A stretch of 64,000 nucleotides of DNA, from the NCBI RefSeq assembly GCF_905475395.1, contig NC_058339.1, forward strand, positions 87,802,520 to 87,866,519. The letters run 5' to 3'. This DNA comes from Chrysoperla carnea (Eukaryota; Arthropoda; Insecta; Neuroptera; Chrysopidae). Under the pieces are notes generated by a model, which had not been told where the DNA came from, ran no database searches, and was given only the letters and a program-made list of their open reading frames with translations. A program made the translations under genes and the position numbers. Positions 1-63,233 of this stretch are shown one piece after another. The first letter of the stretch is position 1. Each line of letters begins with the position of its first letter.

Positions 1-2222
1 TTAATCTACGCAATCTGTTTATAGCAAGAGAAAATTATAAATTTATTGTTATCGATTTTCAACAAATTGAATTTCGTCTATTTGCGCATTTATCGAAAGA
101 TCGAAATTTAATTGAAATTTTCCAAAATAATACGGATATTTTTGTAACACTCATCGAACAATTACAAAACGAGATAAACATTGTTGATATTGATCGTGAT
201 ACTGTAAAACGGATTTTGTATGCTATCATGTATGGAGCTGGACCGATCAAATTAAGTCAAGAATTAGAGATTGATGTAGAAAAAGCGAATAAAATATATT
301 CTTTTATCATTGGTATATACAAAGAAATGCAAATTTTTTATTTTGTTTTTCAGGATGCCATGACGTATCCTGGTGGGAAAAATATTCGAAGAAAGAATAA
401 GTTTTAATAGTTTAGAAAACTCTTAGAAAATTTGAACAAGTCTTAAGAACTGCGAATATAACTCTGAATTTCTCAACGTTTTGGACTACTCTAATTCCGA
501 GTTATTCAGAGTTCTTAAGACTTTTTCAGAGTGTTCAAAAACTTATTAAGACTTATTCTTTCTTCAAATATTTTTTCCACCAGGGTAGTTATTAAGGGAA
601 GGGAGATTGATTTAGTAGATTTCGGTTTTTTTTTCCAGAAAATTATTAATATCGACAAACCTGGGGAAAAGTTGCCCTATAATGATCCCCCATGAAAAAA
701 TCTCATTTATAGCCAAACATACCAATTTCTTTTGATTTGTTAAAATTTCTATTCAATATTTCTCAAAAGGGATCGTTTTACTGACCTTGTAAGAATAGGT
801 GGGTAAAATGATCCCATTGCTCTTTTTACTAAACAGTTCGCATAAAATATTAACAGTTCTATTATATTGCATCAACGATTAGTATGAAAACAAAAACCAC
901 TGATAAAATCATCATAAATCAACCCATTCAAGACCCGCCACATGATGGGGGATCATTTTATCTATTATAATTTTACATACAAAATAGGGATCATTTTAAT
1001 GTATATAAAGGGGATCATTTTACCGACATATTTAAATATCGTCGTAAAAACTGACCTTAAAATTTGTTATACGCCTATCAAAATGTGCTATAACATTATT
1101 AAAAGTCAACAGAAGTCATGAGTAAAACAACCAAACGGCGAAAGCTAACACAAAAAAGAAATTTTACGTTGAAATTTGGGTCATAAGCAGTAAATTTAAT
1201 ATTTTTGCTACAAAACACAAAATATTAATTTGATCACGTGGAAATTTAATCACTTGAACGGTTAATTTGATCACGTGGAAGCCATCTATCGATAAATATA
1301 CTAGATGGCTTTAATGGTTCACTTAAAACAACTAGGGATCATTTTACCCTAAGGGATCATTATAGAGTCTTATCCCCTAATTTAGACTGTATCATTTTTT
1401 AGGAAAATTTTCGGTTTTGAAATCGTTTCCTAAGGATGTTATTGAAGAATGCCGATCTCTTGGATATTTAAGATCATTAACTGGTCGACGTCGATATTTC
1501 CCAAACATTTCGAATTCAAATTTTCAATTACAGTTACAGTCGGAACGACAAGCTGTTAATTTTGTTATTCAGGTAAAATAAATAAAAAAATCCTGCGGGC
1601 AATAAAAATTTGGTACCTTGGGATACTGGGCAGATATTAATAACCGCGAGTTCCAACTCGTCAACTGGCATGGCGATAATAATTCGCACTAATTAAAATA
1701 AGAAGTGGGCTACTGATTTCAGTAGTTTCAATTTAGACTACCAGATGGCAATTGTACTTCTCATTTTTAAAGACCAATCAAAATATTCAAATTCAAATCA
1801 GCGATAAATTAAAACAGGAAGTTAGCCGCTTTTTTAGTAGTTCCAATGTAGACCACCAACCAATTTCAAAGCTTAATGTTTTTTTAGGGTTCAGCAGCTG
1901 ATATTTGTAAATTAGTAATGATACGAATTGAAAATATTTTAGCTGCAAAGAATTACGATTGTCATTTACTTTTGCAAATTCATGACGAACTTTTATGGGA
2001 GATTCATGACACTTGTTTTCAGGAAGCTACAAGTGCGTAAATTTATAATAAAAATTAAATCTTTTAGAATATAAATATTAATCTGTAATTTTATTTTTTA
2101 TAGATCTTATCAAGATATTATTATCAGATTTAGAATTATTGTGCGGTACATTTTTTAAATTATCTGTACCATTTCCGGTCACAATACATTGTTCTAAAAC
2201 TTGGTCAAATGTTAATATTTGA
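1..2222 (+). CDS. Family-A DNA polymerase, POLQ/POLN type, C-terminal exons (5' end outside window)
   Basis: This is the palm and fingers part of a nuclear family-A DNA polymerase, the type used in translesion synthesis or theta-mediated end joining. The exons I infer are <1-312, 1403-1572, 1888-2032 and 2104-2222, and all three GT-AG joins keep the frame. In order they show motif A (DFQQIEFRLFAHLS), motif B (DRDTVKRILYAIMYG), the TGRRRYFP block, the QGSAAD helix and motif C (LLLQIHDELLWEI). The protein ends shortly after the conserved VPFPVTI strand. The second and third exons carry the invariant catalytic surroundings, so the copy looks intact. The 5' part, including any helicase domain, lies outside the window. 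The segment between QGSAAD and HDEL is short and lacks the long insert known in vertebrate POLQ, which leans towards POLN or a compact POLQ (mus308). I cannot decide which. The exon-3 donor (A/GTGCGT) was chosen because only it restores the family C-terminus; direct read-through stops at once. Confidence 0.9.
662..1380. mobile_element. MITE-like element with about 28-bp terminal inverted repeats, copy 1
   Basis: This non-coding element fills most of polymerase intron 1. The left end (GGGGAAAAGTTGCCCTATAA then TGATCCC) is the inverted counterpart of the right end (GGGATCATTATAGAGTC then TTATCCCC). The sentence-like motif GGGATCATTTTA recurs inside it in both subterminal regions. A second diverged copy lies at 41151-41942, collinear over nearly its whole length, which defines the boundaries. 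No transposase reading frame is visible, so it would depend on another element. Confidence 0.75.
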
Positions 2223-5324: not shown

Positions 5325-6846
5325 TTAAGAATTAATTTTTTGCTGTTCGTGACTATCATTAGCAGAAGATATTAAATCTTTCGTAACTATTTCAACATTT
5401 TTTGGCATTTCTAAAATATCTGATAACGATACTTGTTGGAATTCCGGTTCCTTTTTTGTATCATTATCATTTTGATTTGATAAATCATCATTACTGGCTC
5501 TTATTTCAGTGATTAATTTCATCAAAGTTGAATGATCACTTGACTGTGTATCAATAAATGTTGGCGATACTGTGGGTATCAAAATTTCTGGTGTAGGAGG
5601 TGGTGTGTTTGTGATACGTTTCTTTTCCTCAAAGCATATAGTCGGCTTAAAATTCTCAACACAAATATTTACACTATCAAGTGTTTCAAGTTTATCATCG
5701 GTGATTCTAAAATCAGTATTTTCCTCTTTTTGATTTTTACCATCTATTAAATTTTCCGATGGTTTTAAATTTTCGGATGGTTTTAAATCAGAAGAATTAC
5801 GTCTAAAATTTTCGAAATTTTTACTATCTGTAATATTCTCTATCGACATTTTCGTTTCGTTTTCGTAATTTACCAATTTCGATTCATTTATAGCATCAGA
5901 ATTACGTTTAGCATTTTCCTGATTTTTACTATCAGTTAATTTTTCACTTTCATAATTCGTATTATTTAAATTTTTCGTTTCATTTAGTATATCTGTTGGT
6001 ATATCAATAATTTTCATTGCTGAATTACGCTGTTCATTTTCCATATTTTTATCCAGACCACTATCTTTACGATGTTTTCGTAGTAATGAATCCGTTTTTC
6101 GTACCGGTGGAATCGGTTTGTATAATTCATTTAATTTATTTTTGTTGACCGGACGTGGTAAACTATTATCATGTGGTTTATAATGTTCGATCACTCCTAA
6201 ATCCCAATCTTCAAGACCACCCCATGAATCATCACTTTCCGCTGTTTCCGAGTTAATTCTTCGACTTAATTTTAATTTATCAACCAATTTATTTGGAAGT
6301 AAAGAACCAAAACTACGACATCGCATCATATAATTTTCTAAACGTCCAATTTTCTTATTCTCTTCAACATTACGCTGTTTTTCATTAAACTGAACAGTGA
6401 CGTCATCTTCGTCTTCGGTTTCTTTCGCGATACTTAATTGTAGCTCGTTGATATTCGGCAACGAAACAGTTGAATGATGTTTAACATGTTGCTTATAAAA
6501 ACGATCTTCGTCAATTTTGCAAACATGTTTACGTTTGATAACTTTTGTGCATGGCTCTTCGTAAACAGGTTCTTTATGGCTGTATATATCATTGTATGTT
6601 TGCTCGATGAGTTTTTGACGATGACGTCGTGGTGGGGGGATTGGTGTATGAGGATTTATTAAATCGGCGAATATACTTTTTATTTCTTGTAAACTGGCTG
6701 CTTCTAATTTCACATCTTGCCATTCGTTATTTGCAGGTGTATTTTGATTTTGTAATTTGATTTCTTTTTCATTGTTGAGTCCCGTATGTTGGATTTGCTG
6801 TTTGGTTATTTTTTGAGATTTGAAATCTTTTTTGCTATTTTCGCAT
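5325..6846 (-). CDS. Unrecognised Ser/Asn-rich intracellular protein, last exon (506 residues)
   Basis: This is the long terminal exon of a gene whose upstream exons I place at 11138-11193 and 38629-38772. The frame is open back to an acceptor (TTGTTCCAG) at 6847, starting in mid-codon (A|TGC), which fits the exon at 11138-11193. No ATG start is needed here. The protein is hydrophilic and lacks membrane segments. It has a proline-rich patch (PHTPIPPPRRHR), an acidic WGGLEDWDLG stretch, basic patches such as LLRKHRKDS, a doubled KPSENL and repeated KN-EN-RNS-like units. A second proline patch (NTPPPTPEILIP) lies in the last third. It looks like a largely disordered scaffold or signalling adaptor. 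I do not recognise the family. The stop is TAA at 5325-5327. Confidence 0.8.
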
Positions 6847-6939
6847 CTGGAACAATAAAAAAAATTTGTTGATTATTTGAAACTATAATTAGAACAAAAC
6901 AAGCGGGGAAGAACACCTAATATATTTCTTTAAAGATAT

Positions 6940-13216: not shown

Positions 13217-16200
13217 ATGACGAATTTATTGGTTGTTGCATTTACCACCATATTTGTTACAATTGTTGTATCGAAATCGGTGTATCAAAATGAACAAGAT
13301 TCAGAACGGCAACAATACTGTTTGGCTACAGATTTACATCCGGATTATAATTTTTCATCAAAAACACCATACGAATTTGTTTATGGACGTAATCTGAATT
13401 TGGATATACTACCCGGTAAGTCAATTTTCTAGTATATATAGGGTGGGCAATTTTATTCGATTATGACTAATAGCTCGTAACGAATCAAAAAATAAATTAG
13501 ACAAAAGTTGCAGAGTTTGAGGGGGTATCATGTTCTGATATCAGATTGGACCTTATAGGGTATTCTACTATATTTGAAAAAGTACTTCAAAATGTTGATT
13601 TTGCTAATATAAAGCCACCAAAAATTTATTTCGGAAAAATACACACGCTTTCTTTCCAAAAACTTAAATTAAATTTTAAACTTTTTATAAGCGGTCAAAA
13701 AAGCTGGCATTCAATTTGGTGATGTAATATCGGTATCATTATACGAAATAACACAAATAAGTTTGACAGATATATTCATAGACAACTAATTATAATAAAT
13801 TTAAATATTTATTATCTATGGATATATTATACCCAGCTGTCTACACTGAAGTAACTGATGGTCTATGGTTCATACCGATATGGCATCACAGCAGGGATTG
13901 CCCGCGTTTTAGGTCACCTGATATACAGTTTAAATATTACGATTTTTAATTTTAATATTATAAAAGAAAAATGTGCTTTTATGATTCGAAATCAGAATAT
14001 TTAAGTATATTTTTACATAAATTTTAACTTTTTTCAAATTTCACTACCGAAAGTACCCTATTCTCCTTGTGCTGTAATACTCAACTTCTTAAAATGTAGA
14101 AAATAGAATAACAGTTTAAATTAGAAAGTTTAACATCTTAAAAAAAACTAACAATTTTTGTTTAAAACATTTTTTCGAAAAACGTTAGCTTTCGGAGAAA
14201 GTGCGACTTTAAAATATGTCATTATTTAATTTCCGTAGTTAGCGTGTTTTCTTTCGATTAAATTCAATAATGATATATTTTTAAGTCGCATTGCCTCCGA
14301 AAGCTGACGATTTTCGAAAAAATGCTTTAGATGAAAAATGTTAGTTTTTTTATGAGGAGTAACTTTCTGATTTAAAGTGTTATTCTATCTCTTACCTTTT
14401 ACCAATTTAGGATCTAAATTGTATACGAAAGAAATCCCAAAAACTATAAATCCCAAAAACTAGATCCAATCTGACGCCAAACGGTCAGTAGCCAAACGGT
14501 CAAAGACTAACGCCTTAGACCTATCGACCGCTGACCTGTTAATTTAAAATGCATATTATTTATGCAAATTTCATATTTTTAATTTCTTATAAATCAATTT
14601 AGGTCACAAAATTTCCTGCCGCTTTAATTTGAATTCAATACTGGTATAAGATGAGCGACTTTGAACTTAACATTTTTCGCCTGAAACATTTTCCACGATT
14701 AAACTTATTTTTCGCATATGTCAAGTTTCACGCATATGTCAAGTTAAAAAAGCAGCCTTTATAGTAAATAATTTGCAAACAGTTATTTTTTATTCGGCTA
14801 TCCAATTTTATTTGCTATTTTAGAATGCAAACCAGTCCAAATATGGTCTTTTAATCGTCATGGAACACGACTACCAGACACACAGACATTGGAAAAATTG
14901 AAAACCCTTCTGCCTCCACTCCAAGAACAAATTGTTAACAATTATGAGGTAAGAAAACCACATTCCTCAGATCCAAAAAAATAAAAATTATATAATTTAT
15001 TTCTTTCAAAGGTTAAAAAATCATATTCCCAACAAAACCATCTTTGTGAACAAGATTTACAAAATTTGAAAGAATGGAAATTCATACCAGGTATCAGTGA
15101 TGATACGAACGGATGGCTTGCTAATCAAGGAAAAATTGATTTAAATAATATAGCAATCAGGACTCGTACACGGTTTCCAGAACTATTTATGAATACGCCT
15201 TATAGTGAAGAGAATTTTGTGGTAAATTAATCGGAAGAAGGATTAATTGAATGCAGAACTCTTGACTTTCTGAATAAGCTTATAAAGGCAAACGAAAAAG
15301 CTCCTTACCAAATTTCGATTTGAACCTTAATTACCGAGATAATTAATCAAATCAATTAATAAATTTAGCAAGCATTTAAATTTAATAAATTTAGGTTGCC
15401 TTTGTCGTAACTGGGTTGGGTTTTTATTAAAAATTATTAAATACAACGATAAAGACTTGTTTATCTTTCTAAGTGTTCTGTCATTGGATAAAGCTAATCG
15501 ATTTAGTTAACTATCTCAGAAATTAGACCACAGATCGAAATTTGGTAAAGAACTTTTTCGATCGTCGATAAGCTTATTGAATTCTACAGTCAATTATAGA
15601 ACTTCTGCATACATTAAGCTTTGCGAGTTATTTTGATGGAAATTTTTATGATTTTTAGTTCAAATATACAGAATTAGAACGAATTGAAGAAAGTTATAAA
15701 GCTTATATTCGTGGATTTTTTGGTGTTAAAGAAGCATCTATAGTTAATGGAACTATTGTGGACGAAAATAATCCTTTAATGGGAGTAAGTATTAATCCCC
15801 TTCCTCAATCCCCCAAACTATTTTTGTAATCACTCTAATACAAATTATTTTGCAGTATTATACACCATGCAAATCATTCACAAACGTTGTGCAAGAAGTT
15901 ATAAACGATCCACAAAGTGAACCCAATAAATTCCCGCAAACACATGAATTCAAACAAATGATTACAGAAGTTAGTCGAAAATTAGGCTACGAAACTGATT
16001 TAACACAATCTCAAGTACACTTAATGTATAAGATGTGTGTCTTTGAAAAATCATGGATTGTTGAACAAACTTCACCATGGTGTGCTGTCTTCGATGAAGA
16101 ACATTTGAATATATTCGAGTATTGGGAAGACTTATTCTACTACTATCAGAGTGGTTATGGAAATCCATTAGCTATCGAGATGGGTTGTAATGCGGTTAAA

Positions 16201-17491
16201 GATATGTTCGACTATTTCGAGGAATTTGTAACAAAGCCACGTGAACAACATCCAAAGTTAATAGCTTTATTCTCACATAGTCCAAGTGTACGAATGTTAG
16301 AGGTGGCATTAGATTTATTTAGGGATTCGTATCCGTTACGTGCTGATAATTATAATCAGGTGAAATCAAGATGGTGGCGGGCAACAGATATATGTCCATT
16401 TGCTGCAAATTTAGCGGGCGTTTTATATCAGTAAGTACAATGCTTTTTTTCTTGATTGTTCTACAAATTAAGGACGATACTCGACTGATTACGACGATAT
16501 TTCATCTGCTGACTGTAGTCGCGGAAACGGAACACTAAAAACGGTCAAAGTTAAACAAATTTGAACTGTAAGATGGATTTGAATGAGGGTTTCTGCATTC
16601 AATCCGTCGGGAAGCTCGTTATATAATCAGTCCAAAATCGTTATCCACAAGTTTTTGGGGTTACTGAAAACGAATATCGTGTCAGAATTGGTCTCAGAGG
16701 TATCTGTTGCCCAGAGTCAACGGTATCCTCGTTTTCCTCAGAAATTTATGTTATTATTACATGATTTTTATTATAGGTATATTTTTCTCGTAATAATAAC
16801 ATTAATTCACGGGCACAACGAAGGTATCATTCACTCTGGGCACTGGGTATCTTGGAGACTGATTCTGTCGCGATATTCGTGTTCAGCGGCCCCAAAAACA
16901 TCCGGGTTACGAGTTTTGACCGATTATATAACGAATTTTTCGAAATTTTCAGGAGACTACCGTTTACCCTGTACACTAGGTTCCTCCGAGAACAATTCTG
17001 TCGCGACATTCGTGTTCAGTGACCCCAAAAACCCTCGCGTAACATATTTGGACTGATTATATTACCAATTTCAAGAAAACTCCAAAAAACGGCGGGGATA
17101 CCGTTTACCCTGAGCGCCATGTACGTTATAGAACAATTCTATCACGATATTCATATTCCGCGACCCCCAAAACCCCCGTGTAACAAATTTGGAATCATCA
17201 TCTCTATTATAAGCGAATTGTGAATTTAGTATTTACGGTGAATTTAAATTGCAAACCGCATTCAAAACCGTCTTACTCTTCAAATTTTTCGAACTTGTGC
17301 TTGATTTCTTCGACTAATATAAATGATTGTTCTTTCACAGATGTCCTAATGATCAATACAAAGTCAAATTTTTGTTAAATGAGCACGATGTCCATTATCC
17401 AGATTTTGAGAAAATATGGGATTGGGAAGTTTTGTATGCCAAACTGAAATCCGTTGCTATGAATTGTAATTTTGATTTTTGTAATTATTGA
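13217..17491 (+). CDS. MINPP1: MINPP1-like secreted histidine acid phosphatase, copy A (461 residues)
   Basis: Multiple inositol polyphosphate phosphatases remove phosphates from InsP5/InsP6 and related substrates in the secretory pathway or outside the cell. Exons inferred: 13217-13415, 14824-14948, 15012-15221, 15659-15784, 15856-16430 and 17341-17491, all GT-AG and in phase. The start gives a signal peptide (MTNLLVVAFTTIFVTIVV). Exon 2 holds the catalytic RHGTRLP motif, and exon 5 holds WCAVFDEEHLNIFEYWEDL and YGNPLAIEMGCNAVKDM, typical of the family. The usual His-Ala-Glu proton-donor motif reads FSHSPSV here: the His remains but the Glu is absent. Length is near the family norm. Copy B lies 4 kb downstream on the same strand, and both would sit in intron 1 of an opposite-strand gene. 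Introns 1 and 5 hold a nested MITE pair and an inverted minisatellite. Confidence 0.92.
13436..14470. mobile_element. Family C long-inverted-repeat MITE, copy carrying a nested family D MITE
   Basis: Left end AGGGTGGGCAATTTTA ... AAAGTTGCAGAGTTTGAGGG and the right part (ACTTTCTGATTTAAAGTG ... GATCCAATCTGACGCC) match the two ends of the complete family C copy at 49219-49787. A different element (13557-14059) interrupts the left half. The extreme right inverted repeat is eroded. It lies in intron 1 of MINPP copy A. Confidence 0.65.
13557..14059. mobile_element. Family D MITE (AGGGTATTC ... GTACCCT), internally shorter copy
   Basis: The element begins AGGGTATTCTACTATATTTG and ends CACTACCGAAAGTACCCT. 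It is collinear with 32709-33352, except that the latter has about 190 extra internal bases. The short inverted ends (AGGGTA-TTC against AGGGTACTTTC) and flanking AT...AT suggest a DNA element with a 2-bp target duplication. It is non-coding and nested in family C. Confidence 0.65.
16600..17215. repeat. Minisatellite of about 135-bp units, one inverted against three direct
   Basis: Three head-to-tail units share ATTCTGTCGCGATATTCGTG and GACCCCAAAAACCC-type blocks (cores near 16860, 16990 and 17125). A fourth unit at about 16610-16735 is in the opposite orientation. The array is less AT-rich than its surroundings and stays open on both strands, giving spurious frames at 16583-17056 (+) and 16827-17009 (-). 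It lies in intron 5 of MINPP copy A. Confidence 0.65.
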
Positions 17492-21501: not shown

Positions 21502-24500
21502 ATGACAAGTTTCTGGTTTGGATGGATATTGATTGTTATAATAAATGTGATAATTATTGATGTTATCAGTGATAATAACATCAACGATAATGCAGAATAC
21601 TGTTTAGCAAATGACACAAATCCATATTTATTATTTTCAACAAAAACTGCTTATCAATACATTCATGGAAGTTACTTTATATCAAAAGACGAAGAAAAAG
21701 ATCGAAAAAAATTTGAAGGATCAAAATTTCGAGCAAATTTAAATGATCCAAAATCAGGTATGGCTTTAATAATCCCTTTTACGAAAAATTTTCGTTTTTG
21801 AAAAACACGTTTTTGTAATAAGCTGAACTAAAAGGGAGAAAATAATTTCTTTAAATTCAAAAAAATCATTATATCGTAAAAAAGCGTGGGTTTCTTTTTC
21901 AGATATTTTAAAATGACTTTACTTTTACCAATCAATATCTGTCTATAAATACCATTAGTTCAGCTTGCTTCAGAAGCGTATTTTTAGTTTTTTTAAACTA
22001 TTATTTCTTTGCAATCACCTTTTCCAAAAATCACAAAATTTATAAAAACTTTTTATTTTGGAATTTGATAAAACTCAATTTTTAGGGTAATTTATATTTT
22101 TGAGGATTATACGATAACTTTATTTTTTTTTTAGAATGTGAACCATTACAATATTGGAGTATCATACGCCATGGGACACGTTTACCATCGGAAAAAAATA
22201 TAATTGCATTTCAAAAAATTTTACCACAATTACAAAAAAGAATTATCGAAAATTATGAAATTAAACATACAAATCCAAAAACGGGTTCATTATGTGTAAA
22301 AGATTATGAAAATTTAAAAAAATGGAGTTTTGATCAAAATATTTTACCAGAACATGAAAATTATTTAACCGAGCAAGGTAAAAAAGATTTGAAATATTTG
22401 GCAAGACGAACGGGAAATTTTTTAGCAACATTATTTTATCCAAGTGGTGATTTTAATCCCGATAATTATATTGTAAGTAGTGGGCTTAAAGAAAAATGGT
22501 CAGTAAAACTAGGTCTTCCCGAAAAATTAATCGGGACTTTTAATATTAACGCTTTTTGATTTTTAGTTCAAATATACAGAAACTGAGCGTGTTTTAAAAA
22601 GTTACGAATCATTCATTGAAGGTGCATTTGATAGTGATGCCAAAAAAATTCATGGAACTATTATAGCCGAAAATGACACGATTATAGAGGTTTGTATGTA
22701 GATTTCGAAAGTAACCATAAATTTTCTTAAATGTTTCCAGAATACATTAATTAAGGTTTTCCCTTCGAATTCCTTTCCAAAATTTTTTAGAATTATAAAA
22801 CATGTGATGCCTTCTTGAAAAATGAAGAATTTGTAAGAAAAAATCCGCAAAGTGAGCCAAATCGATTTCTGCAAACAAATGTGTTTCGCCAATTAATTAG
22901 AAATGTAACAATTAAATTGGGATTTACTGATCAAGACTTAAATCCATTTTATATACAATTAATGTATAATATTTGTCGTTATGAGAAAGCATGGTATTTT
23001 AATCGGAATCCAGCTTCACCATGGTGTGCAATCTTTACTCCAAGACAATTAGAAATACTCGAATATTGGCAGGATTTAGACGATTATTATATAGACGGTT
23101 ATGGAAATAGATTATCAACGCATTTGGGATGTTTTGCAGCACAAGATTTAATTCATCAATTCGAACGTGTTATCCAAGCGAAACAAAATGGCAGACAGGA
23201 TTATCCAAAAGTTGTGACATCATTTGGGCATAGTGCTATTGTTAATATGCTTTTTACCACATTAGGTAAAGTGAAAATGATTAATTTAAAAGGGAGTCAT
23301 TTCTTAAATGGGATAATAACCGGACCAATAATTGTTCAAGAGTCTACATTGTTTTGATCCTGATACTAAGTTAGCCCAAGATAATGAAAAAAACGTAGCG
23401 CAGGAGCTGTATTAGCTAAGACAATTCCCTAGGAGATTCAAAAAAATAACACATTTTTCTTAAAATCGAAAATTATATTTTTAGTTTTCCTAGAATTTTT
23501 ATTTCGAAAACTAAGCGTCTAGAGAAACAATCACAAGATCTGGCAAGCCACAACTCGATTTATTATCCTGACCAAAACTCGGGCAAGGTTTCGGAAACCA
23601 TTGTTTGATTAATTAACCTTTGTCAAGGATTTAGTAAGGGCTCACAAATCACAGCTTGGCTCAAAATCGAAACCAAACCATAAATTAGATAACTTTAACA
23701 CAAAATTGAATAAAATTTGCGTGTGATAGAGCAAAATCAATTTCTTTGAGTTTTAAAACTCAAAGTCTGAGTGAATTCACTCAGACTTCGGAAACCGCAT
23801 TGCTTCGAAATTAGAAGCCATCCATAAATTATGTGACACAAATTTTGTTTTTTTTTTTTGAAAACCCCCCTCCCCACTTTAATTTCCGTACGAGCTTTCT
23901 GAACCAAGGTATTGCTTTCTAATCAAAATTGACAATTCTAGATTTAAAATCCTATATCTTTCAAAATAACCATCGCACAAAAATTTTTTTCATATATCAT
24001 TCAGAAATTTAAACTACCTTTTTTAACCTATTAAGCACAGTCCCAAAAGACACTGCCCAAAAATATAATACTCTTAAAACGATAGTTTTTGCTATTAATT
24101 AATTAAAAAATTATTCTCTTCACGGGTATATTTTATCCAAGAAATATGAATGACATTATTCGAAATCTATAAATATATAGGAGACTTTCTATAGATATAG
24201 ATAGATAGATAGATAGATAGTCACTCATCACGATATCTCTGGAACTATAAGACCTAGAGACTTGAAATTTGGGAGGAATATTCCTTTTGCCAAGTAGAGG
24301 TCAGCTAAGAACGGATTTTACGAAATTCCACCCACAAGGGGGGTTGCGGGGGTGTTCATGAATAAAAAATTCATATTTTTCAATTATGGCTTTTAATAGT
24401 TCAAAACTTGGTCAGAATGTTTTAAATTACATTTAGAAATTTTTTTAACCTTCGGAGGGTAGAAAGGTGTAGCGAGAAAGTGGGAAGGAAATATCGAATA

Positions 24501-49218: not shown

Positions 49219-49787
49219 TATACAGAGTGGGCCATTTTAATCTATACACCTAAATACCTTGTTTTGTAGTTCATTAATCAAAAACAAAACCTGTAGAATT
49301 TGATAGGGGACATTATATTCTGACATCCAATTGGACCTTGTTATTTGGGTTTCTTTAATAGCCTATTTAGATCCTAAACGGTAAAGATAGAATAACACTT
49401 TAAAGTAATTGATCCTCATAAAAAAATTAACAATTTTTATTTTAAACATTTTTTTCGATTATCGTTAGCTTTGGGAGGAAATGCGACTTAAAAATATATT
49501 ATTGCATGCAATCTAAAGAAAAAACGCTTAAAGTTTATCGATAATATTGTAGATCAAAGTCATAAACACTTTGTTAGTTTTTAAATGTTCTTTTATGAGA
49601 ATTACCACTTTCTGATTTAAAGTGGTAACCTATCTTTTACCGTTTATAATCTAAATTGGTTATTAATGAAACCCGAAGAACTAGAAAAGAACCAATCTGA
49701 TGTCGCCCATCAAACTCTGCAACTTTTGTTTAAGTTATTTTTTGATTGGTTAATTACAAAACGGATTAAAATAACCCGCCCTGTATA
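49219..49787. mobile_element. Family C long-inverted-repeat MITE, complete copy
   Basis: The left end TATACAGAGTGGGCCATTTT is the inverse of the right end AAAATAACCCGCCCTGTATA (with small differences). Pairing continues inward through TTGTTTTGTAGTTCATTAAT, GACATCCAATTGGACCTTG and a TAGATCCTAAACGGTAAAGA block. The whole 569 bases are one imperfect palindrome. The 64-codon frame 49666-49860 overlaps its right arm and is not a gene. Fragments lie at about 12040, 19040 and 51450. Confidence 0.75.
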
Positions 49788-50411
49788 TGAAATACTAGCA
49801 GATACTCGCCTGCTTTGCTGGGCAATTTCAACTTTAAAAACAAAGACAATCATGTTATAGCCCTCACTTTTCTTGACCTTACTTATCCTCCCTTTTGTTC
49901 ACAATTTTAAGGATTTTAATTTTTTGGTACGGAACTCTAATTTTTTTGAAAGTAATATTTTGTCTATGATACTCGCTAATTATGTAACTTTCTATAGGTG
50001 AAATAATTTTAAGCAATTTCGGAAGGATGCCAAAGGGATAAAAACCGAGGGTTTCCGAGTTTTGGATTTTAGAAAAATTGCATTTGTTTATAAAAACTTG
50101 ATAAACAATTATTGCTGTTACTTTTGAAATTTCGCATTCTAAATTTTGAATCAGCGGGCCTAAATATTAATTCCTTGGGTGCTGTATTTATTATATTTAA
50201 AAATCTGTGTTTCTTTAAAAATTTGAAATGTTAAATTTTATGAAATAATCATAGATGGCCTTACTGTATGAAACTAAAATAAAATTTCTAATTTCACGTA
50301 TAAAGAATGACATTTAATTGATTCAAAAGAATAAACTTAAGTTACATAATCCAACAAATTATTAATTGTGTCCTTTAATTAGGGAAATAATCCTATTTTA
50401 AACTCCAATAG

Positions 50412-50581
50412 GTAAGCAAATTTTATTTCGATAAAATTATATTAAAAATAATTACTCTTTTAATTTGATTTAAAAAGTTTCTAACCTCACAACAATAGTC
50501 AGGCCAGAATTCATTGCACACAAATTTTTAATTAAATAACAAATAAAAATCTAAATTCGAAATTATTAATCTCAATTTCAG
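50412..50581 (+). other. Probable 5' UTR intron of the dicistronic mitochondrial unit
   Basis: A donor AATAG/GTAAGC at 50411-50417 and an acceptor CAATTTCAG at 50573-50581 would place the ATG of the microprotein only 6 bases into the next exon. It is inferred from splice consensus only; the start site upstream was not identified. Confidence 0.45.
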
Positions 50582-50587
50582 CTCTAA

Positions 50588-50782
50588 ATGGATGTTGGTC
50601 GTAAATTAAAAAGTGCATATGCATTTTGGCGTTATTATCGTGTAGTGATTATTTTCCCAACATTTACAGTCACCTCAATTCTTGCAGATTATTTGCACAC
50701 AAAACATTGGAAAGCTGAACAATTACAAAAAAAGAAACAATTACAATCATCATTAATTGATTCTGAAGAATTACACGATTAA
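50588..50782 (+). CDS. 64-residue single-pass membrane microprotein, first cistron before NDUFB1
   Basis: The start is ATG at 50588, shortly after a probable acceptor. The protein begins basic (MDVGRKLKSAYAFWRYYR), has one hydrophobic segment (VVIIFPTFTVTSILADYL, about residues 19-36), then a Lys/Gln-rich charged tail ending SEELHD. This is the layout of small inner-mitochondrial-membrane proteins such as respiratory-chain assembly factors. The stop is followed after 14 bases by the ATG of NDUFB1 in another frame, with no room for a promoter, so both are probably translated from one mRNA. I cannot name the family. Its tight pairing with a complex I subunit suggests a mitochondrial role, which is inference. 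Confidence 0.75.
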   Translation: MDVGRKLKSAYAFWRYYRVVIIFPTFTVTSILADYLHTKHWKAEQLQKKKQLQSSLIDSEELHD

Positions 50783-50796
50783 ATTATTTTTAAAAA

Positions 50797-50976
50797 ATGG
50801 CTGCTGTATTTGGTTTAACACCCAGATTTTTTAAATTTGCAACATTACCATTATTGGGCTTCGCAATTGGATGGTTTTTGGATGCTAAAGAAACTGAACG
50901 GATGGTCATGTTCCGGGATAAAAGCAAGCTATATGGTGGTAATGTTAAAGAAGGTCAGCAACCAACATGGCCATAA
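50797..50976 (+). CDS. NDUFB1: NADH dehydrogenase (ubiquinone) 1 beta subcomplex subunit 1 (MNLL)
   Basis: The 59-residue product is an accessory subunit of mitochondrial complex I, located in the membrane arm. It has a short N-terminus, one membrane segment (FATLPLLGFAIGWFLD), then the family signature LDAKETERMVMFRDKSKLY and a C-terminal PTWP. The family is known for a very short protein with a Leu-Asp-x-Lys start to the matrix or intermembrane-facing part, a FR-KS motif and a terminal TW; all are present. It is the second cistron of a two-gene transcript: ATG comes 14 bases after the upstream stop and there is no acceptor between. The AATAAA at 51042-51047 serves both. Frame intact; length normal for the family. 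Confidence 0.9.
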   Translation: MAAVFGLTPRFFKFATLPLLGFAIGWFLDAKETERMVMFRDKSKLYGGNVKEGQQPTWP

Positions 50977-51041
50977 CTTAAGTAATTTAATTTATTTCTA
51001 GTTAAAAAATTTATAGAACATGAATTCGAAGTTAATTTTTT

Positions 51042-51047
51042 AATAAA
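51042..51047 (+). terminator. Polyadenylation signal of the dicistronic unit
   Basis: AATAAA lies 66 bases after the TAA of NDUFB1 and is the first such hexamer after the microprotein start, which supports one shared transcript. Confidence 0.6.
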
Positions 51048-52985
51048 ATTGTTTTCGTTTAAACTAAAATAAAAAATAAATTGACCCTTGATTTTTTATA
51101 ATTTTTACCTTGAAGGAACGAAGACGTTTCTGAAAGTTTTGCGTGAATAACACAATTTCCAAGTCTTCTTGAGAAGAGAAATCTACGACTTTGTAAGTTT
51201 TAATAAGGGAAAAATTTACCTTAGTTGGGGAAATAAGGCGTTTGAGCTCAGAATTTAAAATTACCGAGGGTGTAGTAAAAATTAATTTGGTCATAATGTG
51301 TGGTCCTTAAATATACCCTCGTTAGCAAGTTCGTAATAACCAATCGTGCTGAAAAATCATGAAAATAGAAAATAAAACTATTGAATATTATATTTTGATT
51401 CTAACCATTTTTTTCCCTTAAACGATCTTTTCTAAACCGTGCTGTTTTATACAGAGTGGGCATTTTTATCTATACATCTAAATATCTCGTTTTGTAGTTG
51501 ACCAATCGATAATTTTAAAAAAACTCGATAATTGCCAAATTTGTTGATAACAAAATGTTAGCCTAAAAAATGATCCTTTTTAGAAAACACCTGCTTCTCG
51601 AAAACGGACAGGTTTAGGTGAGAAAAGTAACAAGACAAAACTTGTTTTGAAATGTCCAAAATATAAAATCCCAATTGTTTTAATAATCGTTAATTTTGTC
51701 AATATCAAATTTTCATCAAAATAACGAAATTTGTTTTTGAACACTTGTAAAAACGGCGAGTTTTTGGAAAAAAATGTCACAGTACAAAAAAATGCTTAAA
51801 ATAATTTCAAAATATAACATTCAATAGTTTTTTTTTCTATTTTCATGATTTCATTAGTTTCAAATTCTACATCTGTTGTTTTCGACACGCCCTAAAATAA
51901 TTTCCCAAGTCCCTAGAATAAACAGTCTATTGCTTCTATATTTAAGAAAAACTAAATTTTTACTAAAAACTAAAACAGAAAAACGCATTAATTTTCATTT
52001 GAAAAATATATATATTTATTATATTTTAAAATAACAAAGGTAAAAAAGCCTCTAGCAAACAGAAAACGAATTAGCCACGTAGAATAATTGTCATTTTTAC
52101 TGTGACTGACGCAGGCAAATCGGAACGTTTATCAGAAGCTTATTTTCTAGTCAACAAGTAAAAATTGGTGAAATATAGAGATAATGGTTTTAAAAATACG
52201 TGCCATAGCTCGTTGAATTCGGAATGATGTCTTCAAAAATTGCAAAAGTTATAAACAATTAAAGATGAAAAAAAAAGTTATTTAGTTTTTCGCCAATATT
52301 TCATAAACTATTAATATTTATAAAATTTATGAAAAAGATTCTTAAAGGGAAGGTAATTTCCAATAAAAAAACTCCTACTCTCGGAAGTCTGTCATTAGAT
52401 CTTTTTGCGTCATTTTTAGATTGTTGTAATATCGTCATAAATGAGTACGTCACACTAAATAATTTTTTTAAGTTATTAAATATTAATTTAAAATTTTGAA
52501 AAAATTATGATGTATTCTATAAACACTTAAAAAAAATTATTATCGTTGGGAAATCTTATATATACTCCAGCAAGTTTTTTCCTGTCCTACCCTTATTCCT
52601 TTATCAAATTCCATAATTCAACTCCTCATTTTTCATTTTACCGCTTAGGAAAAAACACAATAAATAATTTGAACGAAATAATATTATAAATTTAAATAAG
52701 TTTATAAGGCAAACATGTTAGTTTTTACAGATGCTCTCCTAATACTTTAGACATATTATTACTATTTTTAATTCATGTTCTCATAATATTAATTTAAGAA
52801 CTTTTGATTTTTTTTCACCACTTTTCTACGAAATTTGTTTGTTGTTTTTAGCCAACGGGTACAGATTTACACGTTTAGCTGGAATTCCGCACGGATCGAG
52901 CTAGTTATTATCTCTAATTTCGCCAATTTGAACTTGTTGACTAGACTATTAATATAGAACAATTTATCACACAGAATAGAAAACT
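51048..52985. other. Intergenic stretch with repeat fragments
   Basis: About 51450-51540 is a left-end fragment of family C (ATACAGAGTGGGCATTTTTA). About 52190-52560 is an inverted copy of family F (37705-38060). The remainder is AT-rich with no recognised gene. Confidence 0.5.
52190..52560 (-). repeat. Dispersed repeat family F, copy 2
   Basis: In reverse orientation to 37705-38060 it contains GTTATAAACAATTAAAGATG, GATTCTTAAAGGGAAGG, TTTTTGCGTCATTTTTAGA and ATTATCGTTGGGAAATCTTA. It ends about 430 bases downstream of the pseudokinase stop. Confidence 0.6.
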
Positions 52986-54371
52986 TTAAAAATATGTTGT
53001 CTGAAAATCCTGTGAACTTTTCAAAGAATTCACAGCAGGTAATTTAAATTTTGCATTAATATTTTCTTTATCATTCATAATCCGTAATAATTCAAAAGCT
53101 TGTTTCTTCGATTCGTTCGTCCAAGAAAACGGTCTTGTTGGTAATATTTTTCGATCATCAGTAATATCACTATTCGCTTTTCGTAATTTATAATCAACAA
53201 TTTCATTTTTCATATTTTCACTAACTAAATTCTCCATAGAATTTCTCGATTCTTGTATAATATTCATATTTTGTACTTGTAAGGCCTTTAATTTTTTATC
53301 CAATAATTCCATTGATTTTTTATCATCAATAATTCGTTTTTTTGATGTTCGACGCTCGGATTGTGATCGACGAAATGCTTTCGGTTTTTTAAATGTTTCC
53401 ACATCGATTTTTTTCGATGTTGGAATAATAGTAGTATCACATGATCCAATCGGTAACGTTGAATCTAAATCTTCATACGGAATTTTCGCTTGTTTTAAAT
53501 AACATTCAGCTTTTGTTAAATTTTCTTCAGCTAATTTTTCTTTCTCTGCTATTTTTCGTGCATTCTCCATTAACTGTCGTTCTTTTTCCGCCAATGATTT
53601 TTCTTTTTCCTCCAATATTTTTAATTTTTTCTCATATTCACTTTCAATGAAACTTTTTTTATAAATTGAAATCGACGATTTAAATATCCCTGGGGAATTT
53701 GTTAAAAAAATTGGATGTATCAGTATTGATTCAATAGTTGAGGTACTTTCATTCAAGAATAAACAAAATCGATAAAAATCCATTGATATCACTCGTAAAT
53801 GTTCGTATTGATTCGAATTTCGAAATGGTTTGAGTGTAAGTAATTCGTACAGTAATTCAGATAATTCAATTAAAATTGTTTTATTTGAATTATTACAATT
53901 CAAATCGAATAAATCAATTTTCAGGTTCGTATTTGCATCAAAATAAATATTTTCTTTACTTAAATGTATTTTAATTTCATTTAATTTTAATTTTTGTGTT
54001 GTTTTAATCACATGACATATTTGATAAGTTAAATTCCATATAAATTGCTCACAAAATTGATTATTTACCTTGTAGGCATTAAATATTAATTGTTGTAAAT
54101 TAATCGTTGGATAATATTCAAAAAATGTATAAAATACTTTTAATTCTGAATCTTTTTCATAATCGAATATTTTTAAAATGTTTGATGAATCATTAAATTG
54201 TGTTAATTTTTTTAAATCACTTTGTATTAATTCTTTATATTTTTTCGATGAATTTCGATATGTAAATAATTTTACTATGTATTTTGTTTGATTGCACTTA
54301 TTTAGAACTTCGTATTTTATAAATGTACCATTTTTAATTATATTTAAAACATCACAGTCGGATAATTTCAT
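52986..54371 (-). CDS. NEK2-like pseudokinase with C-terminal coiled coil, single exon (461 residues)
   Basis: The N-terminal 230 residues follow the order of a NIMA-related (NEK2-type) kinase domain but key sites are lost. The glycine loop is NGTFIK; the ATP-binding Lys34 is kept (YIVKLF). HRD has become K134-I-H136, followed by LSKENIYFD where Asn141 remains. DFG has become L154-F-D156. The activation segment to the family's SDIW region is deleted, so LFDLN runs within a few residues into ILIELSELLYELLTLKPF. A final STIESILIHPIF matches the end of the kinase lobe. A charged coiled coil (about 236-296, YEKKLKILEEKEKSLAEKER) and a basic tail follow, then RPFSWTNESKKQAFELLRIM, resembling insect NEK2 C-termini. 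ATG start; no introns, so a retrocopy origin is possible. Catalysis is unlikely; a centrosomal scaffold role by NEK2 analogy is only inference. Confidence 0.8.
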   Translation of the reverse strand: MKLSDCDVLNIIKNGTFIKYEVLNKCNQTKYIVKLFTYRNSSKKYKELIQSDLKKLTQFNDSSNILKIFDYEKDSELKVFYTFFEYYPTINLQQLIFNAYKVNNQFCEQFIWNLTYQICHVIKTTQKLKLNEIKIHLSKENIYFDANTNLKIDLFDLNCNNSNKTILIELSELLYELLTLKPFRNSNQYEHLRVISMDFYRFCLFLNESTSTIESILIHPIFLTNSPGIFKSSISIYKKSFIESEYEKKLKILEEKEKSLAEKERQLMENARKIAEKEKLAEENLTKAECYLKQAKIPYEDLDSTLPIGSCDTTIIPTSKKIDVETFKKPKAFRRSQSERRTSKKRIIDDKKSMELLDKKLKALQVQNMNIIQESRNSMENLVSENMKNEIVDYKLRKANSDITDDRKILPTRPFSWTNESKKQAFELLRIMNDKENINAKFKLPAVNSLKSSQDFQTTYF

Positions 54372-56275
54372 TTTTGTCGTTTTATATCGTATTTCTGGTA
54401 AATATTTTGAAATATAGGAACTTTAAATTTATTTAAATAACACTTTTAAAATGTTCAACGGTTTTTTTTAAATCTTTGTTTGCGGATACCTGTTTTAGTT
54501 GTGTCCTTGTTTAGTTTGAATATGGGTGGGTGTCTTCTTTTAACACGACCATTTGGATTCCATTGTGATGTGGTTATTTAAAAAAAATTACCTGTTATTT
54601 CACGAAATAGTCATTTATAGATATGCCCATCGACTTACTAACGGGGGGAGGGCAGGTCTGGTCAACTGCCTCCGCTCCCGGAGCATGGTCTTAGGAAAGA
54701 TTTTATTGTAAGTTTGAGTAGCATTCAAGGTTTTTTGGTAGCATCATAGACCCTATTCAATTTCTTTGATAGTGTAACTATACTCATCAAAGCTGATAAA
54801 ATTTTAAAAACACATATCTGTATGACTCCCTGTGAAAAATCATCGATTTTGGAACATGAATAGCTTATTTGAAAAATTTGTACTTTCTATTTTTGGAATC
54901 TATTGTTTAAAAATTTTTCAAACCCCCTACCGATTTGTGCTGAGGGTTGAAAGGATGAGAAATGTTATCCTTAAATTCTATATGAAGTTTAAAAGGGTCT
55001 TCCAAATGTTTTATTTTTCTTGAAAATGAGCCATAAAATTAAAGAGTTTCCCGTACGAGCGTTTTAGATTCAAATATTCGCTTTCCAAGCAAAATTGACA
55101 CTTCTGGAATAAAAATACTGTAGTAATTTTGAAAATTTCGATTTCGAAAATCGGACCCATCACAATAACTTTTTATACTGGGAAGTTAAAAAATACAGCT
55201 GTATCTCTGCGAAGATTTGATATTTAAAAATTTGAAAAACTCCCGACAAATTTTTCGGGTACGGAGCCCCAAACTCGCACTTGAAATATTTGCTAAGAAC
55301 ACTCTCCATTAAATTATCTTTCGAACGAAACAAAAAAATCCTAATCTGTTCATCCGTCTAGGCGCTGTGATGCCACAGATAGACACACATAGTGGTCAAA
55401 CTTATAATACTCCTTTTTTTGGTTCGCGGGTTCAAAATCATCGAATTTAGAACCTTAACATAGCTCATTTGAAAACTTTCTGGTTTTGGAATTTATTGCT
55501 CAAAGATTTGTTCACCTCTTCCGTAAATTTTATATTAATACTCTTGATGAGTTTACAATAATTTTAGATTATTATACTTGCATGCCTCTTAAAACATCTG
55601 ATAAATCTAATTTAAAAAAATGATTTATGATTACATAAAAATAAATACCATCCCTTTTTTTTTCTCTTTGCCTTAAAGACTTAATCATTCTCTTTCCAAA
55701 AAAAAGGCCACATAAATAAAACAAATATTTTGACAAAAAAATAAAATTTTATTAAAATTAAAGTAAAATTAAAATCAATAGCTTCTTTCCTTTTATGCTA
55801 AATCTTTATTAAAATTACCAGATTATGAAAATCAGAACATTTCTATAATCGTACCCAACTCATTTTAAAGATACCTTTAAAATAAAATTTTTATACCTGG
55901 AACAAAATTTACTAAAATACGAGTTCATTCTGTGTCTCAACGAATGAAGCTAATATCATTTTTTGGGGTTACAAATATCATTTTTTAGGAAACAAATATC
56001 ACTTTTTGTAGGGTTCGATTGGCTAAGAATAGGTACACTTGAATATTGGTTGATTATTGAATAGAAAAAAAGATGTGTTGCAATTTTTTTCATCAGGTGA
56101 GAATTACGAAAGATTTTCGCATCTAAAGTTGACCAAATTGGGTACCCCTCCCTCATGCAAAGTACAATTAGAGCTTCTCAGATTAAAAATAAAAGAAAAG
56201 AAGATGAGAGATGATAAAGAGAAGAAGAGAAGATGATAAAGTTGCTGTAATATAACGCCGTTTTTTGAGAATTAG
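54372..56275. other. Intergenic stretch with one family A repeat
   Basis: Family A copy at 55205-55436 (see its entry). About 54640-54700 is a short G/C-rich patch (GGGGGGAGGGCAGG). Short frames at 54832-55023 and 55956-56156 have no domain or splice context and are left out. 56190-56240 is an AGAAGA-rich purine run. Confidence 0.5.
55205..55436 (+). repeat. Dispersed repeat family A, complete copy
   Basis: Blocks AAAAACTCCCGACAAATTTT, GTACGGAGCCCCAAACTCGC, CTCCATTAAATTATCTTTCG, TCATCCGTCTAGGCGCTGTG and GTGGTCAAACTTATAATACT are in family order. Confidence 0.7.
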
Positions 56276-60604: not shown

Positions 60605-63112
60605 TTATTCATTATGCATGTCTAACAAACGTGCTGTTGAAAAAACGTGTGTTAAAATCGATTGAGCTCGTGTGACCTCAGTTTTAATGTGACCCCGTTT
60701 ATGTTTACTTAAATTACTTTTATCTGAAAATGATTTACTACAAATGTCACATGAAAATGGTTTTATACCGCTGTGAATCAATTTATGTTTATTTAAATTA
60801 CTTTTCTTATTAAATGTTCTGCTACAAGTCTCACATGAAAATGGTTTTTCACCAGTATGGAGACGTTTGTGTGAATTTAAACTATTTTGTCTATTGAACG
60901 TTTGATTACAGATATCACAAGAAAATGGTTTTTCGCCAGTGTGACTCCGTTTATGTTCAACTAATTGCCTACTAAGACAAAATGTTTTATTACAAGTATC
61001 ACAGGAAAATGGTTTATTTACACTGTGAATCAGTTTATGTTTAGTTAAAGTGCTCCCGTGGGTAAATGATTTACTACAAACATCACATAAAAATGGTTTT
61101 TCTCCGCTATGAGTCCTTTTATGTTCAACTAAATGACTTTGATGGTTAAAAGATTTACAACAAATATCACATAAATACGGTTTTTCTCCAGTATGGATCC
61201 GTTTATGTTGAACCAAACTACTTTTACAATTAAATGTTTTATTACACATATCACATAAAAATGGTCTCTCCCCCGTGTGCGATCTTTTATGTTTAACTAA
61301 ACTACTCCCGTGGGTAAATGATTTGCTACAAATATCACATAAATATGGTTTCTCCCCCGTATGAGTCCTGCTATGTTCATTTAAATGACTTCGGCTCGTA
61401 AATGCTTTACTACAAATATCACATAAAAATGATTTTTCTTCCGTACAAGTCCGTTTATGTTTGATTGAACCTTTTCTTTTTAATTTTGGAGATACAAATG
61501 GTTTATCGGTAATTTGAATTTGTGGTTCTAAAACACTCGGATCTAATATTTCATCTTTAATTGATAATATTTCTGTATTTAATTTGTTCCCATTTTCATG
61601 ATTTGGTTCAGGTTCCCAACTAATATCACTTTTGTTATCTGGTATCTCTTCCATGCTATCGCTGTTGCTTTCTTCCAATATTTCATCTTTAATTTGTGCT
61701 TCTTGAAGTTTAACACAATCTTCGTCTTTAATGATGACTTCTGGTACACTTTCTTCTATTTTAGCAATCGCTTCTGTATTTAATTGTTTTTCAACTTTAA
61801 TATTCCCGTAAATAACTGGCAAGGAATCCTCTTTCTCTTGTTCACTTGATTTATTATGTGAAAATGTTTTTCCTCCGGTGTGAAGCGATTTATGTTTAAT
61901 TAAACTACTTTTTCTATTAAATGTTTTATCACACATATCACATGAAAATGGTTTTTCTCCGGTGTGAGTCCTTTTATGATCCACTAAATGGCCTAATTGA
62001 TTGAATGTTTTACTACAAACATCACATAAAAACGGCTTTCCTCCACTATGTATCCGTTTATGTTCATCTAAACTACTTTGTCTGGTAAATGATTTGTTAC
62101 AAATGTCACACGAAAATGGTTTAACTCCAGTATGAACTTCTTCATGTCTAATTAAACTACTATGCCTATTAAATTTTTTCTTACAAATGTCACACGAAAA
62201 TAATTTTTCTTTAGTATGAGTCTTTTTATGCCCAACTAAATGGCTTTTATTAGTAAAGGATTTACTACAAATATCACATAAATATGGTTTCTCACCAGTA
62301 TGTATCCGTTTATGTTCAAGTAAACTCCAATGCCTAGTAAATGTTTTTTGACATTCATTACATGAAAATGGTTTTTCACCAGTATGTGACATTTTATGTT
62401 TAACTAAAATACTTTTACGATGAAAAGTTGCATTACACAATTCACATAAAAATGGTTTTTCTCCCGTATGAGTCCGTTTATGTTCAATTAAATGAGTACT
62501 AGTAACAAATTTTTTATTACATATGTCACAAGAAAATAATTTTTCTCCAGTGTGATTTCGCTTGTGTTGAACTAAACTCCAATGTCTGTTAAATGTTTTA
62601 TTACAAATGTCACATGAAAATGGTTTACTCCCAGAATGTATCATTTTGTGTTTAATCAAACTGTTTTTTCTGTTGAATGTTTTGTCACACTTATCACATG
62701 AAAATGAATTTTCTTCAGTATGTGTACATTTATGTTTCACTAAATTACTTTTCTTATTAAATGTTTTGTTACACACATCACAAAAATATGGCTTTTCTCC
62801 AGGGTGAAGTCGTTTATGTTGAATTAAGCCCCAATGCCTGGAAAATGTTTTGTCACAAACATTACATGGGAATGTTTGTTGATCTTCAGTGTCACCACTT
62901 AATTCACTTTCAAGTTTAACATTTTCGTTGTTAATTGTATCATTTTCATTATTTTCTTCATCTTTTAAATCGCTGCTGTTTTCTAGTATTTCTTCCATTT
63001 TAACACTGCTGCTGTCTTCTTGAATTTCATTTTTAATTCGCTCATTTTGCATTGTATCGGCTTCTACAATTTCATTTTTAATTTCGACTTCATCAATTAA
63101 ATTATTTGCCAT
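60605..63112 (-). CDS. C2H2 zinc-finger protein, 21 fingers in two arrays (835 residues)
   Basis: A nuclear DNA-binding protein of the poly-C2H2 type. Start ATG at 63112; no introns visible. Residues 1-80 are acidic with repeated I/V-K-x-E motifs (IKNE, VKME, VKLE) that fit SUMO-acceptor sites. Residues about 81-412 hold 12 fingers of the C-x2-C-x12-H-x3-H type joined by TGEKP-like linkers. Residues about 413-562 are an acidic spacer with IKVE, IKDE and VKLQE motifs. Residues about 563-812 hold nine more fingers. A degenerate half-finger (GSIKHKRTCTEEKS) precedes the second array and a broken KTFSHNK ends the first. The spacer motif IKDEILEESNSDSMEEIP echoes N-terminal IKNEIQEDSSSVKMEEIL, so the protein looks like two fused copies of one acidic-plus-fingers unit. 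No KRAB, ZAD or BTB domain is present in the visible part. Confidence 0.95.
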   Translation of the reverse strand: MANNLIDEVEIKNEIVEADTMQNERIKNEIQEDSSSVKMEEILENSSDLKDEENNENDTINNENVKLESELSGDTEDQQTFPCNVCDKTFSRHWGLIQHKRLHPGEKPYFCDVCNKTFNKKSNLVKHKCTHTEENSFSCDKCDKTFNRKNSLIKHKMIHSGSKPFSCDICNKTFNRHWSLVQHKRNHTGEKLFSCDICNKKFVTSTHLIEHKRTHTGEKPFLCELCNATFHRKSILVKHKMSHTGEKPFSCNECQKTFTRHWSLLEHKRIHTGEKPYLCDICSKSFTNKSHLVGHKKTHTKEKLFSCDICKKKFNRHSSLIRHEEVHTGVKPFSCDICNKSFTRQSSLDEHKRIHSGGKPFLCDVCSKTFNQLGHLVDHKRTHTGEKPFSCDMCDKTFNRKSSLIKHKSLHTGGKTFSHNKSSEQEKEDSLPVIYGNIKVEKQLNTEAIAKIEESVPEVIIKDEDCVKLQEAQIKDEILEESNSDSMEEIPDNKSDISWEPEPNHENGNKLNTEILSIKDEILDPSVLEPQIQITDKPFVSPKLKRKGSIKHKRTCTEEKSFLCDICSKAFTSRSHLNEHSRTHTGEKPYLCDICSKSFTHGSSLVKHKRSHTGERPFLCDMCNKTFNCKSSLVQHKRIHTGEKPYLCDICCKSFNHQSHLVEHKRTHSGEKPFLCDVCSKSFTHGSTLTKHKLIHSVNKPFSCDTCNKTFCLSRQLVEHKRSHTGEKPFSCDICNQTFNRQNSLNSHKRLHTGEKPFSCETCSRTFNKKSNLNKHKLIHSGIKPFSCDICSKSFSDKSNLSKHKRGHIKTEVTRAQSILTHVFSTARLLDMHNE

Positions 63113-63233
63113 TTTTTTAATATTTGTTATATATTAAAATGCGAAAAACAATTCTGGTTTTACTATTTTTTGACAACATGAATAACCTTTCACAGTTTCA
63201 CACACGTCTGTATACACATAGTGCTCATGTACC

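Follow-up and report, generated by a model that had tools for sequence, protein, structure and literature searches.

A 64-codon open frame lies ahead of a 59-codon frame on the plus strand of Chrysoperla carnea DNA, raising the question of whether a single nuclear transcript supplies two small mitochondrial proteins and, if so, what the first of them might be. Both frames are ATG-initiated and closed by a stop codon, and they are separated by 14 bases and read in different frames (0 and 2; Table 1); the coordinates and phases given in an earlier, sequence-only reading of the locus are confirmed. Throughout, 'the window' denotes the whole 64-kb stretch of DNA that was analysed.

Table 1 Features at the NDUFB1 locus (positions are those of the window)
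Feature	Positions	Strand	Basis or remark
TTACATAA, TTAYRTAA match, possible promoter-proximal element	50342..50349	.	weak
Possible 5′UTR intron	50412..50581	+	donor tag/GTAAGC at 50412, acceptor aatttcag ending 50581; inferred
First cistron, putative 64-aa single-helix membrane microprotein	50588..50782	+	codon usage, GC, predicted helix
Acceptor-like site inside first cistron	50670..50687	+	5.07 bits, top of 50380-50830; sites as good at 0.34 per kb across the window
Intercistronic gap, 14 bases	50783..50796	+	
Second cistron, NDUFB1 (complex I MNLL subunit)	50797..50976	+	Pfam, PDB and own-genome matches
Three AATAAA polyadenylation signals (51042, 51068, 51075)	51042..51080	+	just downstream of second cistron

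By sequence match, the second frame is identified as NDUFB1. In Pfam it matches PF08040 (NDUFB1/MNLL) at E=2.4e-16 (59.6 bits, cut-off 27), all 13 distinct PDB sequences matched at E<=1 are named NDUFB1 or MNLL, and PF08040 has one match at E<=0.001 in the animal's own genome (559 Mb in 337 contigs). The 56-residue PDB chain 8ba0_f, presumably the fly NDUFB1 chain, is matched at E=4.4e-15. The first frame also has one convincing match in the same 559 Mb and 337 contigs, namely itself (E=9e-38); two further matches (E 0.95 and 5.6) contain stops and were set aside. The own-genome search scored the best candidates only, exon by exon.

Elsewhere in the window, plus-strand exons at 15796-16431 and 22791-23354 apparently belong to two adjacent histidine acid phosphatase genes (PF00328, E 1e-21 and 5.4e-12), and an open frame at 3-404 (+) matches family A DNA polymerase (PF00476, E=1.9e-24). 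The minus strand holds a single 842-residue open frame with many C2H2 zinc fingers (60608-63133) and two open frames for which Pfam gave no match at 0.01, one of 515 residues (5328-6872) and one of 478 residues downstream of NDUFB1 (52989-54422); by eye, the latter resembles a protein kinase that has degenerated and carries a coiled tail.

The length of the first frame is in itself unremarkable: in the window, 19 ATG frames on the plus strand run to 64 codons or more, with real exons among them, and 40 first-order Markov sequences contained 6.9 on average. Its GC content by codon position (0.44/0.31/0.17) resembles that of NDUFB1 (0.47/0.42/0.29) and differs from that of the 500 bases on either side (0.23/0.20/0.24 before, 0.31/0.23/0.29 after). 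To train a codon score, six long open frames from the window were used, of which three match a Pfam family, two match none and one was left unscanned; the first frame scores 0.16 bits per codon. In 24001-49400, a region assumed rather than proven to be non-coding, all 18 ATG frames of 50 codons or more (both strands) and all 686 overlapping open stretches of 64 codons fall short of this value; among 20,000 simulated open frames, three attain the codon score, nine the contrast between GC1 and GC3, and none both. The score is insensitive, because NDUFB1 itself receives just 0.02, a value equalled by two of the 18 frames from the presumed non-coding region. High scores are rare by chance, making a chance origin of the first frame unlikely, and judging by its codons and composition it is probably a real microprotein gene.

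That NDUFB1 can be preceded by a peptide frame is already known from fly and tick, so the arrangement is not new. Among the 44 putative conserved-peptide uORFs that Hayden and Bosco (2008; PMC2276209) list for Drosophila is one in CG18624, the gene of the fly MNLL (NDUFB1) subunit (PMC551531, PMC2241641). In Table 1 of that study the CG18624 uORF has 54 amino acids and is under purifying selection, with a Ka/Ks of 0.11; the value of the main frame is 0.06 (p<0.0001 in both cases), and the most distant pair described there comes from the tick Boophilus microplus (EST CV448373). As in the transcript of CG18624, the Chrysoperla locus places a small peptide frame, here of 64 rather than 54 residues, ahead of NDUFB1 on the same strand without overlap. 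The microprotein is probably the counterpart of the CG18624 uORF peptide, as position and size suggest, and the locus a probable new case of this known conserved uORF–NDUFB1 pair. In the sections of the study available to us the fly peptide is presented as a uORF, with no stated function or localization (PMC2276209); no function for it was found in the portions of the literature that were searched, including PMC2276209, PMC551531 and PMC2241641, and the pair is not mentioned in the available portions of PMC4359375, PMC11475943, PMC9204603 or PMC7260771. The dicistronic unit proposed by the sequence-only reading is the most likely reading, with a first frame that is coding-like and predicted to span the membrane, although the arrangement itself had already been published (PMC2276209).

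The two start codons differ in strength, the first frame opening in a weak context (ctctaaATGG, T at -3) and NDUFB1 in a strong one (taaaaaATGG, A at -3 within a run of A). Between them lie two further AUGs (50592 and 50619), which open frames of five and eight codons in poor contexts. The three AUGs ahead of NDUFB1 are close to the roughly four expected from base composition on our own estimate, so that their poor contexts fit leaky scanning but may be due to chance and are no proof of it. A single polyadenylation signal had been claimed for the pair. This is correct in so far as no AATAAA occurs in 50588-51041, but several follow the second cistron (in 50501-51400 the hexamer is found at 50542, 51042, 51068, 51075 and 51371), and the variant ATTAAA is present in the same interval at 50531, 50605 and 50778.

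Upstream, a possible 5′UTR intron would leave 6 bases of exon 2 ahead of the first ATG. Its donor ranks in the top 0.32% of the 3119 plus-strand GTs in the window and is the best in 49400-51050. The acceptor scores 1.54 bits on approximate splice weight matrices, which places it fifth among the sites listed in 50380-50830, with 3.5 sites as good per kb. Because this acceptor is modest and four nearby AGs outscore it (50687, 50825, 50669 and 50382), the intron is uncertain. The octamer TTAYRTAA, taken here as the nuclear-respiratory-gene (NRG) element of insects, is too common for the upstream match to serve as evidence, with 26 occurrences in the 64-kb window.

The highest-scoring of these AGs, at 50687, bears directly on the dicistronic reading. 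Joined to the donor at 50412, it would make the NDUFB1 ATG the first ATG past the join, there being none in between. It is therefore a real possibility, though less likely than the dicistronic reading, that the two products arise by alternative splicing rather than by dicistronic translation, the acceptor at 50581 yielding a microprotein mRNA and that at 50687 an NDUFB1-only mRNA; the site at 50687 (5.07 bits, the best of 50380-50830) outscores that at 50581 (1.54 bits). However, the matrices behind these values are approximate and equal sites occur at 0.34 per kb, while the fly uORF is part of the CG18624 transcript annotation and the pair occurs together in the tick EST (PMC2276209). The earlier statement that no splice site separates the frames is accurate for the 14-base gap, which contains no AG, but not for the first frame itself, where the top acceptor-like site of 50380-50830 resides. 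The refuting test suggested at the time looks for an acceptor in 50782-50797 and so passes over the greater danger to the dicistronic reading, this acceptor-like site within the first frame.

A second alternative grants that both frames share one message but denies the peptide a job of its own, the first frame being a regulatory uORF that tunes NDUFB1 in cis. Regulation of the main frame is among the possibilities listed by Hayden and Bosco for such pairs (PMC2276209). We nevertheless regard this as rather improbable, as the coding signature across the 64 codons, the predicted membrane helix and the low Ka/Ks in flies (PMC2276209) all point to a selected product.

For that product, one membrane helix is predicted, with a hydrophobic stretch at residues 19-37 (mean Kyte-Doolittle 1.5) and a net charge of +4 before it and 0 after it. 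By the positive-inside rule, the N terminus of the microprotein would face the matrix. A single-sequence structure model consists of one helix spanning residues 3-61 (mean pLDDT 76, pTM 0.38) and appears to tell little beyond 'helix'. The suggestion that the first product may be a small inner-membrane assembly factor has this make-up as its whole basis, and we likewise infer a mitochondrial location.

Family searches with the first frame gave no significant Pfam family, the sole match being COX6A (PF02046) at E=0.03, no NCBIfam family and no PDB match below E=0.1 (best E 0.11). Scans of viral and prokaryotic sequence collections (viral_contigs and genome_contigs) with each frame confirmed no relatives; they are uninformative on the first frame, because NDUFB1 also drew no match there. 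Each of the 43 subunits of fly complex I has a mammalian counterpart (PMC9977279). In the PDB, NDUFB1 finds its presumed fly chain, whereas the first frame finds none. If the fly peptide is reasonably similar to the one described here, its absence from the solved fly enzyme disfavours a role as a stable subunit and favours one in assembly or another transient function.

It is very unlikely that the first frame encodes a small respiratory-chain protein that is already known, such as COX14, a fragment of COX6A, SMIM26, mitoregulin or the like. The COX6A profile match (E=0.03, 15.2 bits) lies under the cut-off of 25, and 40 shuffles of the first frame that kept its three segments gave 27 families at E<=1, at least eight of the 25 listed reaching E<=0.03 (one shuffle each); as shuffled frames attain the same E value, the match is at chance level. 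COX14 is similar by eye, being a short single helix with a charged helical tail, but BLASTP with a provisional human COX14 sequence gave only a 3-residue match (E=7), and PF14880 is not among the Pfam matches of the first frame. A search of the genome for COX14 gave eight matches at E<=10, one of them over the cut-off and none at the NDUFB1 locus. The true COX14 gene is a separate one elsewhere in the Chrysoperla carnea genome, a single open frame of 77 codons at L005 1492-1725 (+) (PF14880, E=3.9e-13).

Nor did any of 19 small mitochondrial proteins, entered as provisional sequences, show significant similarity to the first frame in local and global alignments judged against 1000 segment shuffles. 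Human SMIM26 ranked top of the 19 in both modes (reached by 41 and 23 of 1000 shuffles), but was lost on correction for 19 comparisons. To our knowledge, the SMIM26 gene is not adjacent to NDUFB1. Described in the available part of a review as a short mitochondrial protein tied to complex I, SMIM26 bears a faint, non-significant resemblance to the microprotein around the helix and differs in length, with about 95 amino acids in human (PMC12733331) compared with 64 here. NDUFC1, also among the 19, gave z below 0 and is missing from fly complex I (PMC9977279). Finally, a chance open frame in an AT-rich leader is highly unlikely. Frames of similar length are common in the window, but the codon and GC-position tests speak against it, as does the CG18624 uORF, conserved in flies (PMC2276209).

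The best reading of the locus is an old arthropod dicistron. In its full form, to which we assign a somewhat better than even chance, a dicistronic nuclear gene would encode NDUFB1 together with a mitochondrial inner-membrane microprotein for respiratory-chain biogenesis, with leaky scanning as the means of translation. One mRNA, probably with a short non-coding first exon, would bear both frames; some scanning ribosomes would initiate at the weak AUG at 50588 and produce the microprotein, while the remainder would bypass it and initiate at 50797 to produce NDUFB1, and the output of the one would be coupled to that of the other. The microprotein would cross the inner membrane once, with its basic N-terminal side in the matrix and a helical C-terminal part reaching into the intermembrane space. 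It would serve respiratory-chain biogenesis, most likely that of complex I. A bolder version, which we consider quite improbable, would make the microprotein a factor devoted to complex I biogenesis throughout the arthropods, and possibly their equivalent of SMIM26, a protein that supports ND5 synthesis. It would then have been held on one message with NDUFB1 since before the fly–tick split, the strength of the start codons setting how much factor is made relative to the subunit.

Should the pairing prove general among arthropods, the gene of a complex I subunit would also encode an uncharacterised protein of the inner membrane, of a kind that annotation could miss as 5′UTR, and fly CG18624 would offer a ready genetic handle on a new respiratory-chain factor.

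The sloth1/sloth2 pair (SMIM4/UQCC5 and C12orf73/UQCC6) likewise consists of two small membrane proteins per transcript with few bases between them, and shares with the NDUFB1 locus a weak first and a strong second start. The start of sloth1 (ACACATG) has been called non-optimal and that of sloth2 (CAAAATG), 5 bases further on, optimal, and leaky scanning of the pair is supported by reporter tests in S2R+ cells (PMC9681215). The proteins themselves are not alike: against provisional human SMIM4 and C12orf73 sequences, the first frame gave local z values of -0.01 and 0.91 (global -0.39 and 1.51), and neither PF15114 nor PF14990 is among its Pfam matches, in keeping with the original impression that the microprotein resembles neither sloth protein. 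The two systems differ further in their gap, of 5 bases in sloth and 14 here, and in their setting, sloth1/sloth2 being concerned with complex III assembly whereas the present locus involves a complex I subunit. If the pairing with NDUFB1 holds across arthropods, the locus would join sloth1/2 as one at which the strength of the start codons sets the balance between two mitochondrial microproteins.
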